NCBI GenBank assembly: GCA_026415675.1
Contig: JAOAGQ010000036.1
Location: 1 to 56,883, forward strand
Origin: Syntrophorhabdaceae bacterium
GTDB taxonomy: Bacteria; Desulfobacterota; Syntrophorhabdia; Syntrophorhabdales; Syntrophorhabdaceae
Length of the DNA stretch: 56,883 nucleotides
Direction of reading: 5' to 3'
In this document: one piece after another, positions 4,844 to 21,626 of the stretch
Layout of the letters: each line of letters starts with the position of its first letter
Position numbering within the stretch: the first letter of the stretch is position 1
Notes under the pieces: generated by a model
The model's database searches: none
What the model saw: the letters and a program-made list of their open reading frames with translations, nothing else
Told to the model about the DNA's origin: nothing
Program-made: the position numbers and the translations under genes

Positions 4844-5989
4844 TTACTTCTGGGGCTTGCCCAGCACCTCTTCCATGAACTTCTCGTTGACAATCTTGCC
4901 TTCGGCGATGTTCTGACGGTACTTGATGAAGTCTATGGTGTCTACCCCTGTGATCTTCTTCGTGTTGAATGCGCCGAAGCCCATGAATGCCTCGCCCATC
5001 ATGTTTGCGGCGAGCCAGTGTCTGTGGTCGTTCTTCATGGTATCCCAGAAGAATTTCTTCTTCTGCCTGATGCCGTCGATGGATTTTATCAAGCATCCAG
5101 GGAAGAGGTTTGCGAATGTCCACATGATCCTGTCGATCTCTGCATCGATCAAGGAGAAATCAACTTCGTTGTTCTTCTGTTTTTCCTGTACCCAGGCCCT
5201 TGCCTGTTTGAACTCATCACCAGTCTTATTCTCACCGTATACGATTTCACCGTTTTCGATGAACTTATCTGTAATGACCATCGGGTTTCTCACCCATTTG
5301 CCGTTCTCATCCTTTAAGACAGGGAATGCCTTTGTTATTAGACCCTTCCACCACATCTTATAAGCGCTCCACATCTCGCAGGATACGCAGCTCCACATCG
5401 CATCCTCGATGCTTAGGTATGCCGGGAGGAAGTCGGAGGCACCACCGACTGGGGCTGAGCCGTGACGGGGTCCTGCCTGACCGAAAACAGCGATGTCTGA
5501 GGCAAGGGTTAAGTCGCACGCTGTCCCTATCTCCTGACCACCGGCTACCCTCATACCGTTTACACGGCAGACCACAGGTTTTTTGCACATGAGGATGGAG
5601 TCAACCATGTTGTTGAAGAGTTCCATGTATGCCCCATATTCCTCAGGCCTCATGCTGTAATATTCAGAATACTCTTTTGTATTTCCCCCTGTACAGAAGG
5701 CAAATGGACCTGTGCCTGTAAATACAACACCGACAACTTCTCTGTCTACTGAGGAGTTCTCAAAACCTGCTATAACACCCTTCACCATCTCTGTTGTGTA
5801 AGAGTTGTACTGGGCGGGGTTATTGAGTCTTATCCATGCAACGTAAAGACCGGGGATTACATTACCCTTCGGGTCTTTCAGAGGTCTTTTCTCATAGACA
5901 ACGCATGGAGCCTCTGTCCCCCAGTGCTCTGAACCGAACCTAAAATGGTCCTTTTTTCCGTGTTCCCTTGGCATCCATTCTAAACCCAT
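4844..5989 (-). CDS. oah: 6-oxocyclohex-1-ene-1-carbonyl-CoA hydrolase (ring-opening)
   Basis: This 381-residue crotonase-family enzyme (Oah, also called BamA) adds two waters to 6-oxocyclohex-1-ene-1-carboxyl-CoA and opens the ring to 3-hydroxypimeloyl-CoA. It is a marker of anaerobic aromatic degradation. The long N-terminal extension before the crotonase core, the segment FCTGGNTKEYSEYYSMRPEEYGAYM, the oxyanion segment RVNGMRVAGGQEIGTACD and the tail FGAFNTKKITGVDTIDF are characteristic, and the length fits the family. AGGAGG lies just before the ATG. It sits between had and dch, as expected for this pathway, with a terminator immediately downstream. Confidence 0.95.
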   Translation of the reverse strand: MGLEWMPREHGKKDHFRFGSEHWGTEAPCVVYEKRPLKDPKGNVIPGLYVAWIRLNNPAQYNSYTTEMVKGVIAGFENSSVDREVVGVVFTGTGPFAFCTGGNTKEYSEYYSMRPEEYGAYMELFNNMVDSILMCKKPVVCRVNGMRVAGGQEIGTACDLTLASDIAVFGQAGPRHGSAPVGGASDFLPAYLSIEDAMWSCVSCEMWSAYKMWWKGLITKAFPVLKDENGKWVRNPMVITDKFIENGEIVYGENKTGDEFKQARAWVQEKQKNNEVDFSLIDAEIDRIMWTFANLFPGCLIKSIDGIRQKKKFFWDTMKNDHRHWLAANMMGEAFMGFGAFNTKKITGVDTIDFIKYRQNIAEGKIVNEKFMEEVLGKPQK

Positions 5990-6013
5990 AGAATCCTCCT
6001 TTAATTTAAATTT

Positions 6014-7123
6014 TTAAAAATCTGGTTTTAAGACCACCCTCTTTGCAGGGGAACCAGCCTTATGTATCTCGTCGAATGTTGCGGCTATCGTACTCATGGG
6101 TCTTACCTCAACAAAAGGATCTATCACTATCTTTTTGCTGAGTACCATATCGAGTACTATGGGGTAATATTCCGGTAGACATCCCCATGTCCCTATGATC
6201 TCTGCGTCGAAGGCCATAAGTTTTGAGAACATATACTCGCTCTTTGACATGCCGAATCCGACCATTATGAGTTTTCCAACAAAGGAGAGTAAATCGAGGG
6301 CGAGATCCTGACCTGCCTTTGTGCCTGTCACCTCAAAGATCTTCCATCCTGTATTCGGAAGACCTCCTGATTTGCAGATATTCCTCCATTCACCAACTAT
6401 TGTCTTGTTATCTTTTTCCACCGTACTGATCACGGCATCGCAACCGTATTCGAGGGCCCTTTTCAGTTTTTCAGGATTCCTTGCGATACCTATCACGGTT
6501 TTTGCCCCAAGGGCCTTTGCGGTCTGGGCCATGTAAACCCCTACACCGCCTGTGGCTCCAATTACGACGACATTATCCCCTGGTTGCAAATCTGCCCTTT
6601 TTGCTGCCTGGTATGGTGTTGTGACCGCATCTGCAATAACAGAGAGCTGTTCGAGGGCATAACCTTTTTTGTCGGGAACGGGACAAAGGTCGATTGATGG
6701 TACAGGGATATGGCTTGCAAATCCACCATATACACCGATACTATTGCCAGGCATCTTCTGGGCAAGGCACCTGTTTCCCCTGCCTGTTTTACAGAGGATA
6801 CACTGACGGCATGGCATAACAGCAGGTATGATCACCTCTTTTCCTACCCATGCAGGATCTCCGGCCACAACAGTGCCTGCAATTTCATGACCTAATGCAA
6901 GGGGTGGTTTGCTAACCGTGGGAACCCCGTCATAGAAATATCCCAGGTCTGTGTGGCATACACCGCAACCTGCGATTTCGACGAGGACCTCTCCAGGTTT
7001 CAACTCCGGCACAGGTATCTCAACCATCTCAAGTTTTCCAGGTATTGTTTCTTTTGTCTCCTTGTTGAATGTGGTTGGTTGAACCATCTGCCACTGTTTT
7101 ATCGTTTTTGGTAAATCCGCCAT
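6014..7123 (-). CDS. had: 6-hydroxycyclohex-1-ene-1-carbonyl-CoA dehydrogenase
   Basis: This 369-residue zinc-dependent medium-chain alcohol dehydrogenase oxidises the Dch product to 6-oxocyclohex-1-ene-1-carboxyl-CoA, normally with NAD. It has the catalytic zinc Cys (GCGVCHTD) and GHE, the four-cysteine structural zinc lobe (MPCRQCILCKTGRGNRC), and a Rossmann motif (GATGGVGVYMAQ). The N-terminus (KTIKQWQMVQP) and the neighbours oah and dch support Had (BamQ) over a general alcohol dehydrogenase. The ATG at 7123 is preceded by an excellent AAAGGAGG at ideal spacing; a GTG at 7129 is less likely. It is 24 bases from oah and 58 from the SDR gene. Confidence 0.93.
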   Translation of the reverse strand: MADLPKTIKQWQMVQPTTFNKETKETIPGKLEMVEIPVPELKPGEVLVEIAGCGVCHTDLGYFYDGVPTVSKPPLALGHEIAGTVVAGDPAWVGKEVIIPAVMPCRQCILCKTGRGNRCLAQKMPGNSIGVYGGFASHIPVPSIDLCPVPDKKGYALEQLSVIADAVTTPYQAAKRADLQPGDNVVVIGATGGVGVYMAQTAKALGAKTVIGIARNPEKLKRALEYGCDAVISTVEKDNKTIVGEWRNICKSGGLPNTGWKIFEVTGTKAGQDLALDLLSFVGKLIMVGFGMSKSEYMFSKLMAFDAEIIGTWGCLPEYYPIVLDMVLSKKIVIDPFVEVRPMSTIAATFDEIHKAGSPAKRVVLKPDF

Positions 7124-7181
7124 AAACACCTCCTTTTTTGGTATTTAATTTTTATGATTCCCAACACCTCCTTGAAACATA

Positions 7182-7934
7182 TTACGTCATACCGTAACCA
7201 CCATCCACGCATAAAAGCTGTCCCGTGATGTACCTTGAATCATCAGATGCGAAGAACACAAAGGCCGGGGCCACATCTTCAGGGTCGGCGTATCTACCGA
7301 GGAGAATCCTCCTTACGTAGATCTCCTTTAACTTTTCATCGGTAGAAATCTTTTCTGTCATGTCTGTAGTCACAATACCGAGAGAGATGACGTTTGCCGT
7401 GACATTATATTTTGCGAGTTCCCTTGCCATGGACTTTGTCATGGAGATCACCCCACCCTTTGCCGCACTGTAGTTAATCTGACCTATGGTTCCCACAACG
7501 CCTGCGACAGATGTCACATTTACAATCCTCCCGTAGTTCTGCTCCATAAAATACTTGGATGCGGCCTTTACCATAAGCCAGGGACCTCTCATCTGGATGT
7601 TGACCACCTCGTCCCATGTTGCCACGTCCATCTTATGGAGCATCCCGGGTTTTGAGACGCCTGCATTGTTAACAATGATATGGATTGAACCAAAGGTGTT
7701 AACACAGGTTTCCACTATTTTCTTGGCATCTTCCTCGTTGCTCACATCGCCCTTTACCGCAACGGCGTTTCTCCCCATTGCCTTTATCGTTTCAACAACC
7801 TCATTTGCCGCCTTCTCGTTTCCAGCGTAATTGACAACAACATTTGCCCCCTCTTTGGCAAAGGCTATACTTATTGCCCTGCCAACCCCTCTGCCACCGC
7901 CTGTGACTACAGCGTTCTTTCCTTCTAATTTCAT
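7182..7934 (-). CDS. Short-chain dehydrogenase/reductase (FabG-like; possible 3-hydroxyacyl-CoA dehydrogenase)
   Basis: This 250-residue classical SDR has the cofactor motif TGGGRGVG, NNAG, the catalytic Ser in VTSVAG, Tyr and Lys in YSAAK, and a typical C-terminus (ITGQLLCVDGGYG). SDRs of this type reduce 3-oxoacyl thioesters or oxidise 3-hydroxyacyl thioesters. As first gene of the had-oah-dch run it could oxidise 3-hydroxypimeloyl-CoA or a related beta-oxidation intermediate; that is context, not sequence proof. The ATG at 7934 has AGAGG five bases upstream. A strong promoter lies about 45 bases further upstream. Confidence 0.85.
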   Translation of the reverse strand: MKLEGKNAVVTGGGRGVGRAISIAFAKEGANVVVNYAGNEKAANEVVETIKAMGRNAVAVKGDVSNEEDAKKIVETCVNTFGSIHIIVNNAGVSKPGMLHKMDVATWDEVVNIQMRGPWLMVKAASKYFMEQNYGRIVNVTSVAGVVGTIGQINYSAAKGGVISMTKSMARELAKYNVTANVISLGIVTTDMTEKISTDEKLKEIYVRRILLGRYADPEDVAPAFVFFASDDSRYITGQLLCVDGGYGMT

Positions 7935-7977
7935 AGTCACCTCTCAATAGAGTTTGTGAAAATTTTTATTTGTTTAT

Positions 7978-8192: not shown

Positions 8193-9089
8193 TTACTTCT
8201 CGACGGGGAGGTCAGGGTCTTTCATCCACTCTTCTGAGGAGCCATCGTATACCTTCACATTTTTATATCCAAGGAGCTGTGATGAGATATATGCCCAGAC
8301 GGTGGCGAGCCTCCCTGTATCGCAGTAGAATATCACCTCTTTTGTTACATCTGTCCCCAGTATCGAGTCCGCCATCTTTCCCAGCTCAGGCATGATCTTT
8401 ATATTTCCATCGGGCCTAAATACGCTTGACGACGGGAGGTTAACGGCACCCTTTATACGGCCTTCTTTTGCAACGAAGTCGAGTTTCTTTTCCCCTTTGA
8501 AGAACTCCGCATCCCTTGTGTCAACGATGACCGCATTTCCGAGTCTCGATTTTACATAGTTTTTATCAACAAAAAGATCCTTCTTTACATTGGGCTTAAA
8601 ATTCTTTGCCTTTGGTTTAACAGGCTCAGTGGATACCTCCCTGTTTTCGTTTACCCATCTATTGTACCCACCATCGAGGATCGACACATTTTCAAGACCG
8701 AGGTATTTTAGTGTCCAGGCGACCCTTGTTACATCTACCCTATCTGCCATTGTATCGGTTTTTCCCACAATAACGACGGATGAATCCATGTCTATTCCTG
8801 ATGAACCGACAAGGTCTGTTAGGTCATCTACTGGGGGGAGTTCGTTTCTTAGTCCTGCCTTTGTGGTAACCCACGAACCATAGAACACGTTCACGGCGCC
8901 AGGGATGTGACCTGCCTTATAATCCTCAACCTTTCTTACGTCGATCACTACGAGTCCGGGTTCTTTGAGGTTGTCCTCAAGCCAGCTCGGCGAAACAACG
9001 GGCCAGATGTTGGAAGCAGAGGAGACAAGGGGGAGTAAGATAAAACCACACATCAAAACCAAACAGAAAAACAAACTTCTCTTTACCAT
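8193..9089 (-). CDS. Exported tandem-domain rhodanese (sulfurtransferase)
   Basis: This 298-residue protein begins with a clear signal peptide (MVKRSLFFCLVLMCGFILLPLVSSA) and has two rhodanese domains. The first (about residues 33-150) keeps the fold (VVIDVRKVEDYKAGHIPGAVN) but has no active-site cysteine (VIVGKTDTMADRV). The second (about 165-298) has the active loop CDTGRLA. Rhodaneses move sulfane sulfur, and some move selenium, to thiol acceptors. It starts 16 bases after the multiheme cytochrome stop with a strong AGGAGG, and the operon ends in a terminator, so the pair is probably made together and acts in the periplasm. Natural donor and acceptor are unknown. Confidence 0.9.
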   Translation of the reverse strand: MVKRSLFFCLVLMCGFILLPLVSSASNIWPVVSPSWLEDNLKEPGLVVIDVRKVEDYKAGHIPGAVNVFYGSWVTTKAGLRNELPPVDDLTDLVGSSGIDMDSSVVIVGKTDTMADRVDVTRVAWTLKYLGLENVSILDGGYNRWVNENREVSTEPVKPKAKNFKPNVKKDLFVDKNYVKSRLGNAVIVDTRDAEFFKGEKKLDFVAKEGRIKGAVNLPSSSVFRPDGNIKIMPELGKMADSILGTDVTKEVIFYCDTGRLATVWAYISSQLLGYKNVKVYDGSSEEWMKDPDLPVEK

Positions 9090-9105: not shown

Positions 9106-10362
9106 TTATTTTATGGGCTTCGGTGCATATATCAGCTCTTTATTCGCCTTTGAGCCGTTCTTAATGAGTCCTTCGGCTGTGAGAAAATCTTTCTTCTCTT
9201 GATGGCATACCTCACAGGAACGGGTACGCTCGGTCCGCTTTCTTATATTGTGGGGGGCTGTATCCCAGTAGTTTGGCAGGCGGTCAAACCCTTCCATTTT
9301 TATACCGGCACTCTTAAAAGTATCCCTTACCGTGGGTATAATCCTTAAGGTGGTAACGGTCTTCTTATCCCTCGGGTTTTTGCCGAGGATAAAAGCTGGT
9401 TTTGCCGTTGCCCCGGCCCCTAAATGGCAGTCATAGCAGTTGCGATAGGGACCCCCGGAATGGCAGGCCTGACAACTAAGTCTATCTTTGTGCTGAACAT
9501 GGGCGGATTTTGCCTTTTCAGTGGTTTCCTGGCCGGGTTTATGGCAGTTTATGCATAAAGGCCTATCCTTTATCTCTTTTCTCGATGGGTATATCTTCCC
9601 ATCACCGTGTAATTCCACCTTTTTATGGCAGTCAACACACATCATACCCTTTTGGTAATGAATATCCGCCGTTCCCCCGTATTCCCCTGTGAATTCGGGA
9701 TAGACCCTTCCCCCATGGCATAGGGCACAGGTCTTCCCCTCATCTCTCTTAATAAACCTGTGGCCTTTTATCAACCCTGGGCTTATGCCGCCTATGACAG
9801 GGGATTTAACATGACAATCCCCACAGGAGGCATGGCATGATCTACAGGATTTCTCAAACACCTTTTCCTCGAAGACCTTCATCTCCGATTTTGTAAACCT
9901 CGGGGCAACCCCTTGTTTCAGCCCATGGGTTGTGTAGTGGAGGGATGTTTTATACGTCTTTTCTATATCGTTGTGACACCTTCCACATGTTTTCAAGTCA
10001 TCGGAAGGTCTTTTGATGATGCCCCTATGGGCCGCCTCTCTACTTGTTGCCTTCTCATCGCCTTTATGACAGGGGGTACACCCTTCGAGAAAGTGGGGGT
10101 CATTCCCTATTAAACCCTTATCTACCAGATAACCCCTGTACTGCAGTTCCGCCGGAACTGTCGGAGGTGCCCCTGCTCACCCTTCCCCTTCTGCAGCATC
10201 TATCTTTTTTGGCTTATAGAGGGATTTGAGCAGACTTTCGTCGGTATGACATTTTATGCATCCATTCTCAGCACTATCCACATCTTGAGACAAAAACATG
10301 AAAAAGAGGAAGGTTACTGCTACTGATACAACTAAAGTTCCATATAGATATTTTCTTTTCAT
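9106..10362 (-). CDS. Multiheme cytochrome c with an in-frame TGA (possible selenoprotein, otherwise a nonsense-split gene)
   Basis: One continuous minus-strand frame runs from an ATG at 10362 (AGGTG six bases upstream) to a TAA at 9106, interrupted only by a TGA at 10177-10179, codon 62. The N-terminal piece has a signal peptide and one CXXCH (35-39). The frame after the TGA stays open and adds ten more CXXCH motifs (CTPCH 95-99, CGRCH 126-130, then CRSCH, CGDCH, CALCH, CVDCH, CINCH, CQACH, CYDCH, CEVCH), eleven in all. The larger piece has no signal peptide, yet hemes are attached outside the membrane, so it makes sense only as part of the whole. If TGA is read as selenocysteine the protein is 418 residues. 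A bacterial-SECIS-like hairpin follows the TGA. A nonsense mutation or sequencing error remains possible. The rhodanese lies directly downstream. Confidence 0.78.
10144..10179 (-). promoter_or_regulatory. In-frame TGA plus SECIS-like hairpin
   Basis: On the minus strand the TGA (10179-10177) is followed after 16 bases by a perfect seven-base-pair stem, CAGTTCC with GGAACTG, closing a three-base GGC loop (10160-10144). Bacterial SECIS elements lie just downstream of the UGA with guanine at the start of the apical loop, which this matches. A weaker outer pairing, CCTC with GGGG, may extend it. Whether SelB binds it is unknown. Confidence 0.5.
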
Positions 10363-21022: not shown

Positions 21023-21104
21023 TCAAACAAAGGTGTAAAGAAAAGGGTTTGCAATAATAGTCCCGATGTGGTAGAAAATGAGAAATAGACCTCTGGGGCG
21101 AACG

Positions 21105-21626
21105 ATGAAGGCCCGAATCTTAATTATATTTGCTGTATCCTTTTTTGGTTTCCTCATGGCAGAGGGATATGCCTTTAAAAAGGCTGACCTTGACAGACTC
21201 ATGGAGACAAACTCATGCGAATGGTGTGATCTAACCAATGCAGACCTATCGAAGTTATACCTTTCCGGGGCGATTCTAAAAAACACAAATCTTTCCGGGG
21301 CAAACCTTTCGAACAGTGACCTCTCAAATGCGGATCTCTCCTGGGCCACCCTCACAGGGGCAAAGCTAACAAACGCCAATCTTTCCGGGGCCACCCTCAA
21401 GGGGGCTACATTAAAGGGGGCCGATTTAACGAGGACGGATCTAACAAAGGCAAAGCTCAATAATGCGAATCTCCTTGATGCGAACCTCTCGGGGGCGAGA
21501 CTCACAGATGCGAACCTCTCAGGGGCAGTGTGGACCATTGGCAAAAAGTGTGAGGAAGGTTCTATCGGGGAATGTATCGGGGATTATTTTAGCCGGGGAA
21601 GTTCTAAAGGGGGCATACCTTTCTGA
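21105..21626 (+). CDS. Exported pentapeptide-repeat protein
   Basis: This 173-residue protein has a signal peptide (MKARILIIFAVSFFGFLMAEGYA) and the conserved start KKADLDRLMETNSCEWCDLTNADLSKLYLSGA. About twenty A(D/N)L-type pentapeptide repeats follow (for example ANLSN, ADLSW, AKLTN, ATLKG) to about residue 150, forming a right-handed quadrilateral beta-helix. The two cysteines before the repeats (CEWC) could form a disulfide outside the membrane. The C-terminal tail has a further Cys pair region (KKCEEGSIGECIGDY). The function of exported members is not established. A start at 21078 is also possible. It is divergent from the solute-binding lipoprotein. Confidence 0.85.
   Translation: MKARILIIFAVSFFGFLMAEGYAFKKADLDRLMETNSCEWCDLTNADLSKLYLSGAILKNTNLSGANLSNSDLSNADLSWATLTGAKLTNANLSGATLKGATLKGADLTRTDLTKAKLNNANLLDANLSGARLTDANLSGAVWTIGKKCEEGSIGECIGDYFSRGSSKGGIPF

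Follow-up and report, generated by a model that had tools for sequence, protein, structure and literature searches.

In this report, we describe an exported multiheme cytochrome c that carries 11 CXXCH motifs and very likely contains selenocysteine at residue 62, where its gene has an in-frame TGA. The gene lies in a window of 56,883 nucleotides (the whole stretch of DNA that was analyzed) from a Syntrophorhabdaceae bacterium (contig JAOAGQ010000036.1 of GenBank assembly GCA_026415675.1). The comparative support for the selenocysteine reading is strong, but it has not been shown on the protein. The larger explanation, that this exported 11-heme selenocytochrome acts with a rhodanese in sulfur or chalcogen redox chemistry, is one toward which we lean by a modest margin.

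Results and Discussion

Organization of the Probable Selenocytochrome Gene

The features of the locus are collected in Table 1. The initial annotation, made from the sequence alone, had reported a single TGA at codon 62 of an open frame with a signal peptide and eleven CXXCH motifs, and ten hemes without an export signal in the part 3' of the TGA. Both claims held when the frame was rechecked. Its further inference, that the UGA is read as selenocysteine to give an 11-heme selenoprotein, is supported comparatively, without proof at the protein level.

Table 1. Positions in the window of the selenocytochrome gene, its parts, and the adjoining rhodanese gene
Feature	Position	Strand	Remarks
Exported double-domain rhodanese	8193-9089	minus	16 bp 3' of the cytochrome; catalytic loop YCDTG in the second domain
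Selenocytochrome gene	9106-10362	minus	ATG start; 418 aa read through the TGA; 11 CXXCH; TAA stop at 9108-9106; architecture common to homologues
N-terminal export signal, about residues 1-31	10270-10362	minus	Read from the sequence, with residues 2-25 helical in the model; 5' of the TGA, with no other export signal in the frame
Heme motif 1, CIKCH, residues 35-39	10246-10260	minus	5' of the TGA
TGA very likely read as selenocysteine, residue 62	10177-10179	minus	Context EGEG-U-AGAPP; TGA kept in all clades
Heme-rich body, motifs 2-11	9109-10140	minus	Residues 87-418 match octaheme tetrathionate reductase in the VIA comparison
Family SECIS-like hairpin	10148-10165	minus	Consensus UCCGCC-GGUNNN-GGCGGA; window UCCGAC-AGUUCC-GGCGGA, with one A.G mismatch; synonymous suppression
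Alternative 7-bp hairpin, GGC loop	10144-10160	minus	Window sequence only; might act there instead of the family hairpin or in competition with it

TGA is the stop codon of 19 of the 41 large open reading frames in the window and cleanly separates yajC from rpsF, and we therefore regard it as a normal stop in the source genome. No comparable case turned up elsewhere when the window was scanned for open frames connected by a single TGA, and the TGA at codon 62 is the only one in its frame. The parent genome (2.56 Mb in 75 contigs, 99% complete) holds no second copy of the gene. A sequencing error or a pseudogene was also considered as the origin of the TGA and was ruled out by its presence at the identical site in all 38 sequences compared, the window included. 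Inspection of the raw reads, which had been suggested, is thus unnecessary.

Homologues and the Residue at the TGA Site

A scan of GTDB genomes gave 41 loci. In clade A, the TGA occupies exactly the same site in 38 of 38 sequences, the window among them. The surrounding residues are mostly E-G-E-G-U-A-G-x-P-P-x-V, and the codon after the TGA is always GCN. The TGA is never replaced by TAA or TAG, protein conservation is continuous across the site, and all complete clade A sequences have 11 hemes in the compared stretch. The gene was present in 43 of 328 good genomes sampled from the phylum of the window. A profile search found it in 47 of 395 genomes of the phylum, with exactly one TGA in nearly every match, and added two divergent groups, clades B and C, that are 32-37% identical to the window protein. 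In both groups the TGA is found at the same place, after heme 1, in the contexts EGEG-U-GGxVAPLEP and variants (clade B) and AAVAG-U-GVSAPQVRGRDT (clade C). About 70 distinct sequences with the TGA are known over the three clades. Three of the homologues (L130, L131, and L135) have 10 heme motifs, not 11.

The initial annotation had proposed that the residue at position 62 be compared among homologues. The TGA is kept, and no Cys form was found among the matches from the 395 genomes of the phylum. The usual argument from Cys and Sec homologues is consequently missing, and this is not a Cys/Sec pair family. The few members without selenocysteine have Pro at the site (L038 and L115) or neither Cys nor Sec (the fusion L129). 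The genome that carries L115 also carries a Sec copy (L106), and L136 is truncated before the Sec site. When the tree is divided at its deepest split, selenocysteine is present in both parts, and members that lack it group within or next to those that have it, subject to long-branch caveats.

In Smithella-type loci, the frame runs 5' into a further c7/c3-like heme domain, so that the TGA stands midway in a protein of about 17 hemes. Separate initiation after the TGA is implausible for this reason. One genome (G018) has a second copy (L137) that is split over two frames into fragments with 6 and 4 hemes, and this may be a decaying paralogue or an assembly error.

Selenocysteine Machinery

The source genome holds every sel gene that the initial annotation had proposed to look for. 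The tRNA-Sec gene (selC) was found on contig C41 (72 bits against a cut-off of 47), and selA, selB, and selD were matched with 566, 387, and 369 bits, respectively. The selD gene itself has one TGA, and its product starts MDIELTKYVRGAGUASK. The loop of the SelD hairpin lies at the same distance from its own UGA as that of the selenocytochrome, and the selenocysteine-containing SelD provides a control within the same genome. The co-occurrence of selA adds little to the argument, because selA was found in 61 of 64 tested genomes, carriers and non-carriers alike. In two genomes of one genus (G002 and G014), selA lies two genes 5' of the selenocytochrome. The gene order in these loci (L138 and L139) is selA, a pseudouridine-synthase-like gene, the cytochrome, the rhodanese, and a second rhodanese.

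Conservation of an RNA Hairpin after the TGA

A bacterial SECIS had been proposed in the form of a 7-bp hairpin with a GGC loop. This hairpin folds as described but is private to the window sequence. The SECIS-like hairpin that is conserved in the family begins five bases closer to the TGA. In the window, the minimum-energy fold is the 7-bp hairpin and not the family hairpin, with energies of -8.7 kcal/mol for the former and -3.4 kcal/mol for the four-pair version of the latter. The mismatch in the family hairpin of the window, together with the competing fold that the folding model predicts, is a caveat on the selenocysteine reading.

In clade A, the GU at nucleotides 22-23 of the apical loop, counted from the U of the UGA, is invariant. 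The arms are nearly frozen at the synonymous level: Ala71 is GCG in 37 of 37 sequences, Pro66 is CCT in 35 of 38, and Pro67 is CCG in 29 of 38. Outside the hairpin arms these codons vary freely, and the gene-wide mean codon entropy for Ala, Pro, and Gly is 1.4-1.8 bits. The extent of pairing was compared with that in codon shuffles that preserve every amino acid and the codon usage of each gene. The observed pairing in clade A was 0.94, against a mean of 0.50 and a maximum of 0.57 in 2000 shuffles. For clade B, the observed value was 0.95, against a mean of 0.55 and a maximum of 0.68. Pairing so far above the control in both clades indicates that the hairpin is under selection at the RNA level.

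Covariation in clade A is limited to a single compensatory pair, in L013, where a change of CCG to CCT is matched by a change of GCG to GAG that converts Ala to Glu. Since the arms hardly vary, covariation in this clade is weak evidence alone, and the codon shuffles and clade B were therefore used as tests. RNAalifold splits the clade A stem because half of the Smithella-type sequences have a C.C mismatch. In clade B, where it recovers the helix unaided, the helix occurs as GGCUCC-GUU-GGAGCC, in the swapped form GGAGCC-GUU-GGCUCC, and as AACUCC-GUU-GGAGUU. The corresponding protein segments are APLEP, the swapped EPLAP, and TPLEL (L108-L126, L130, L131, and L135). Compensatory double changes were found at 4 of 7 pairs, in 13 cells, a result reached by none of 500 shuffles, and controls slid along the sequence were 31-45% paired as compared with 95% at the hairpin. 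The amino acid changes between APLEP and EPLAP are thus coupled in a way that keeps the RNA helix, a clear effect of RNA structure on protein sequence. Clade C has a shorter stem and a loop that contains GGU or GUU, with too few sequences for a covariation test. An Rfam search around the gene gave only chance matches. As regards the SECIS proposed at the outset, the family has a SECIS-like hairpin that is conserved and that covaries in the sister clade B.

Association with a Rhodanese

The protein encoded directly behind the window cytochrome matches PF00581 in two stretches (E 4e-36). The initial annotation had suggested that this neighbor could relate to sulfur or selenium chemistry, and the gene association has proved much stronger than the window alone could show. 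With the window rhodanese as the tblastn query, a rhodanese match was found in all 38 of the clade A loci with the Sec gene (window included). The rhodanese gene lies directly 3' of the cytochrome, typically 10-30 bp from its stop codon, with two exceptions. In L032, the best rhodanese match nearby is on the opposite strand, and clustering of the open reading frames also places one directly behind the cytochrome; in L097, the rhodanese is 5' of the cytochrome. The Cys of the catalytic YCD loop is invariant among the clade A partners. Most of the loci examined in clades B and C, the divergent L131 and L135 among them, also have a rhodanese of one or two domains after the cytochrome; L130 has none directly behind it. 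In L129 (255-2339) and L136 (74-1714), the cytochrome and a double rhodanese form one polypeptide, and from these two gene fusions we infer that the two proteins make physical contact.

In many loci the conserved module consists of these two genes only. Where the operon is longer, it also encodes a large multiheme cytochrome, a second rhodanese, and a cytochrome whose membrane part is b561-like. In Smithella-type loci, genes for NrfD and a 4Fe-4S protein are found upstream. In G391, a gene for octaheme tetrathionate reductase precedes the selenocytochrome on the same strand.

Structural Model and Octaheme Tetrathionate Reductase

An AlphaFold model of the protein, built with 59 sequences and without hemes, has a pLDDT of 86 and a pTM of 0.79, and it is least certain at residues 51-70, around Sec62. 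A Foldseek search of the model against the PDB gave no match under E 0.001. In the VIA comparison, octaheme tetrathionate reductase (1sp3) was matched with a Z score of 9.6 over 263 residues within 87-418 (rmsd 4.6), and the next row scored 4.5. A comparison of profiles gave E of about 1e-15 for the same enzyme, a score that the CXXCH repeats may inflate, and paired hemes 3-9 of the selenocytochrome with hemes 1-7 of the reductase. A distant relationship between the two proteins is likely, and their heme wires are probably homologous in part.

Octaheme tetrathionate reductase (TIGR04315) is the best structural match of the window protein, and many of its members in this phylum likewise carry a TGA, which lies between the first two hemes of that family at a site that is otherwise Cys. 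It differs in having eight hemes rather than 11 motifs and in its conserved Lys motif, VKHGDLD, which is absent from the window protein. No match to TIGR04315 was found in the window genome at E 1e-12 (cut-off 375 bits), and L126 of clade B reached 37.5 bits, below the same cut-off. Homology of Sec62 with the Cys/Sec site of the octaheme enzyme was considered and rejected, since the profile alignment puts that site between hemes 3 and 4 of the selenocytochrome. Sec62 is accordingly placed on an added N-terminal part. Nine His residues outside the heme motifs are conserved in clade A (90, 112, 142, 201, 235, 252, 288, 291, and 371), which leaves two of the eleven hemes without a conserved His partner.

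In many members of TIGR04315 in this phylum that score over the cut-off, TGA replaces a Cys that is otherwise invariant and lies between the first two hemes (L142, L146, L147, L152, L155, L156, L158, L161, L163-L165, and L167-L169). Octaheme tetrathionate reductase is thus a common Cys/Sec pair within a respiratory enzyme family in this phylum. These members agree with the entry of a Sec form of TIGR04315 in the table of a 2026 review (PMC13188914).

Comparison with Known Selenocytochromes and Novelty

The closest known selenocytochrome is ExtKL (NF040886), found in Geobacter and others, and it belongs to a family separate from that of the window protein. Like the latter, ExtKL is an exported multiheme cytochrome c with one UGA-encoded selenocysteine and a rhodanese-like protein, ExtH, in its cluster. 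However, ExtKL has five hemes with the selenocysteine C-terminal of them (in L065, five motifs are followed by RLPDG-U-PSRA), whereas the window protein has 11 hemes, selenocysteine between hemes 1 and 2, and a different neighborhood. The NF040886 model (cut-off 250 bits) did not detect the window gene even when E was relaxed to 1. ExtH (NF040901) is likewise an exported rhodanese that adjoins a selenocytochrome, but the window rhodanese scored 50.5 bits against a cut-off of 200. The link to the Geobacter ext clusters that the initial annotation suggested is therefore one of analogy only, as the window genes fall short of both the ExtKL and the ExtH models. The closest chemical precedent is TsdA, whose Cys ligand to the heme becomes covalently bonded to the sulfur of thiosulfate (PMC5146829). 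The Cys-ligated cytochromes TsdA and SoxXA are known examples of a c-type heme associated with a chalcogen side chain; this is a functional analogy, and no sequence relation is claimed.

NCBIfam (June 2026) has no family for any clade tested. In the literature searched, the only multiheme cytochromes with selenocysteine were ExtKL, the GSU2204 family, and the Sec form of octaheme tetrathionate reductase (from the 2026 review table). An inventory of prokaryotic selenoproteins from 2026 (PMC13188914) has three entries of the cytochrome or CXXCH type, none of which is the window family by name. We propose that the window family, with 11 hemes, no Cys form found, and a rhodanese partner, is a new selenoprotein family, with the reservation that a family missing from a library and from open-access papers may still be known to others. 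Selenoprotein searches lean on a Cys homologue, and the authors of a recent method note that a family lacking such a homologue may be lost in the filtering (PMC12013277). A family with selenocysteine nearly throughout and no Cys form found is liable to such filtering. The gene is probably also widely misannotated, because gene callers that stop at the TGA truncate it.

Proposed Function and Alternative Explanations

In the mechanism that we propose, SelB, recruited by the hairpin just 3' of the codon, would insert selenocysteine at UGA 62, and the exported selenocytochrome would act with the exported rhodanese whose gene comes next. The reactive group would be the selenolate located between hemes 1 and 2, and it would take a sulfane sulfur, a chalcogen oxyanion, or an S-S substrate, which would be delivered by, or passed to, the persulfide of the rhodanese. 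The heme wire would supply or remove electrons, to or from the quinone pool, to which the NrfD and 4Fe-4S module would probably join it in Smithella-type operons. The outcome would be a periplasmic redox conversion of sulfur (or selenium or tellurium) species. There is no evidence on the substrate. A periplasmic oxidoreductase of sulfur compounds or chalcogen oxyanions that uses selenocysteine together with the rhodanese is the function that we favor, although only at about even odds. Because a rhodanese accompanies the cytochrome at nearly every locus, the idea that selenium takes part in periplasmic sulfur or chalcogen redox chemistry can be tested directly. A bolder reading, which is possible, is that these proteins form a widespread class of selenoenzymes. 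In them, a selenolate placed at a c-type heme, either as its axial ligand or as a nucleophile, would exchange sulfane sulfur with a rhodanese dedicated to this task. If true, the active site would be one in which nature combines selenium and heme, and an enzyme of sulfur respiration would have gone unnoticed for want of a Cys version.

It remains possible that Sec62 has a structural or tuning role in a plain periplasmic electron wire, where selenium would ligate a nearby heme or set its potential without turnover. The two hemes that lack a conserved His partner in clade A would fit this view, as would the Pro in paralogues L038 and L115 and the absence of both Cys and Sec from fusion L129. However, these same non-Sec paralogues suggest that an electron wire needs no selenocysteine, and the presence of a rhodanese partner at almost every locus argues for chemistry. 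Selenocysteine comes at a high cost, and proteins that keep it usually do so for its reactivity. A component of extracellular electron transfer like Geobacter ExtHIJKL, mainly for the reduction of selenite and tellurite or of metals, appears unlikely. In its favor, ExtKL is a multiheme selenocytochrome from a cluster with a rhodanese-like protein, in which loss of the porin ExtI impairs the reduction of selenite and tellurite (PMC5877670), and the longer operons described here hold large cytochromes, a second rhodanese, and a cytochrome b-like protein. Against it, the ExtKL, ExtH, ExtM, and ExtN models all score far below their cut-offs, the module is only two genes in many loci, and no gene resembling an outer-membrane porin or conduit was noticed directly in the module in the loci examined, although no dedicated search was made.

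That the TGA is a true stop, giving a short peptide and a separately started cytochrome, or is read through with another residue, is all but excluded. The use of TGA as a stop by nearly half of the large window frames and the imperfect family hairpin of the window would speak for this explanation. The part after the TGA, however, has neither a conserved start codon nor an export signal, and the attachment of c-type heme requires export. The other arguments against it are that the codon is never TAA or TAG, that a covarying hairpin at SECIS distance is accompanied by a full sel system, and that an extra heme domain is fused 5' of the TGA in Smithella-type loci.

Other Genes of the Window

The selenocytochrome is adjoined at 4844-7940 (minus strand) by matches to TIGR03200 and TIGR03201 above their cut-offs, which identify genes for 6-oxocyclohex-1-ene-1-carbonyl-CoA hydratase and 6-hydroxycyclohex-1-ene-1-carbonyl-CoA dehydrogenase. 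From these two genes, anaerobic degradation of benzoyl-CoA by the source organism is likely. A pentapeptide-repeat-like protein encoded at 21023-21626 (plus strand) is overlapped by an open frame on the minus strand.
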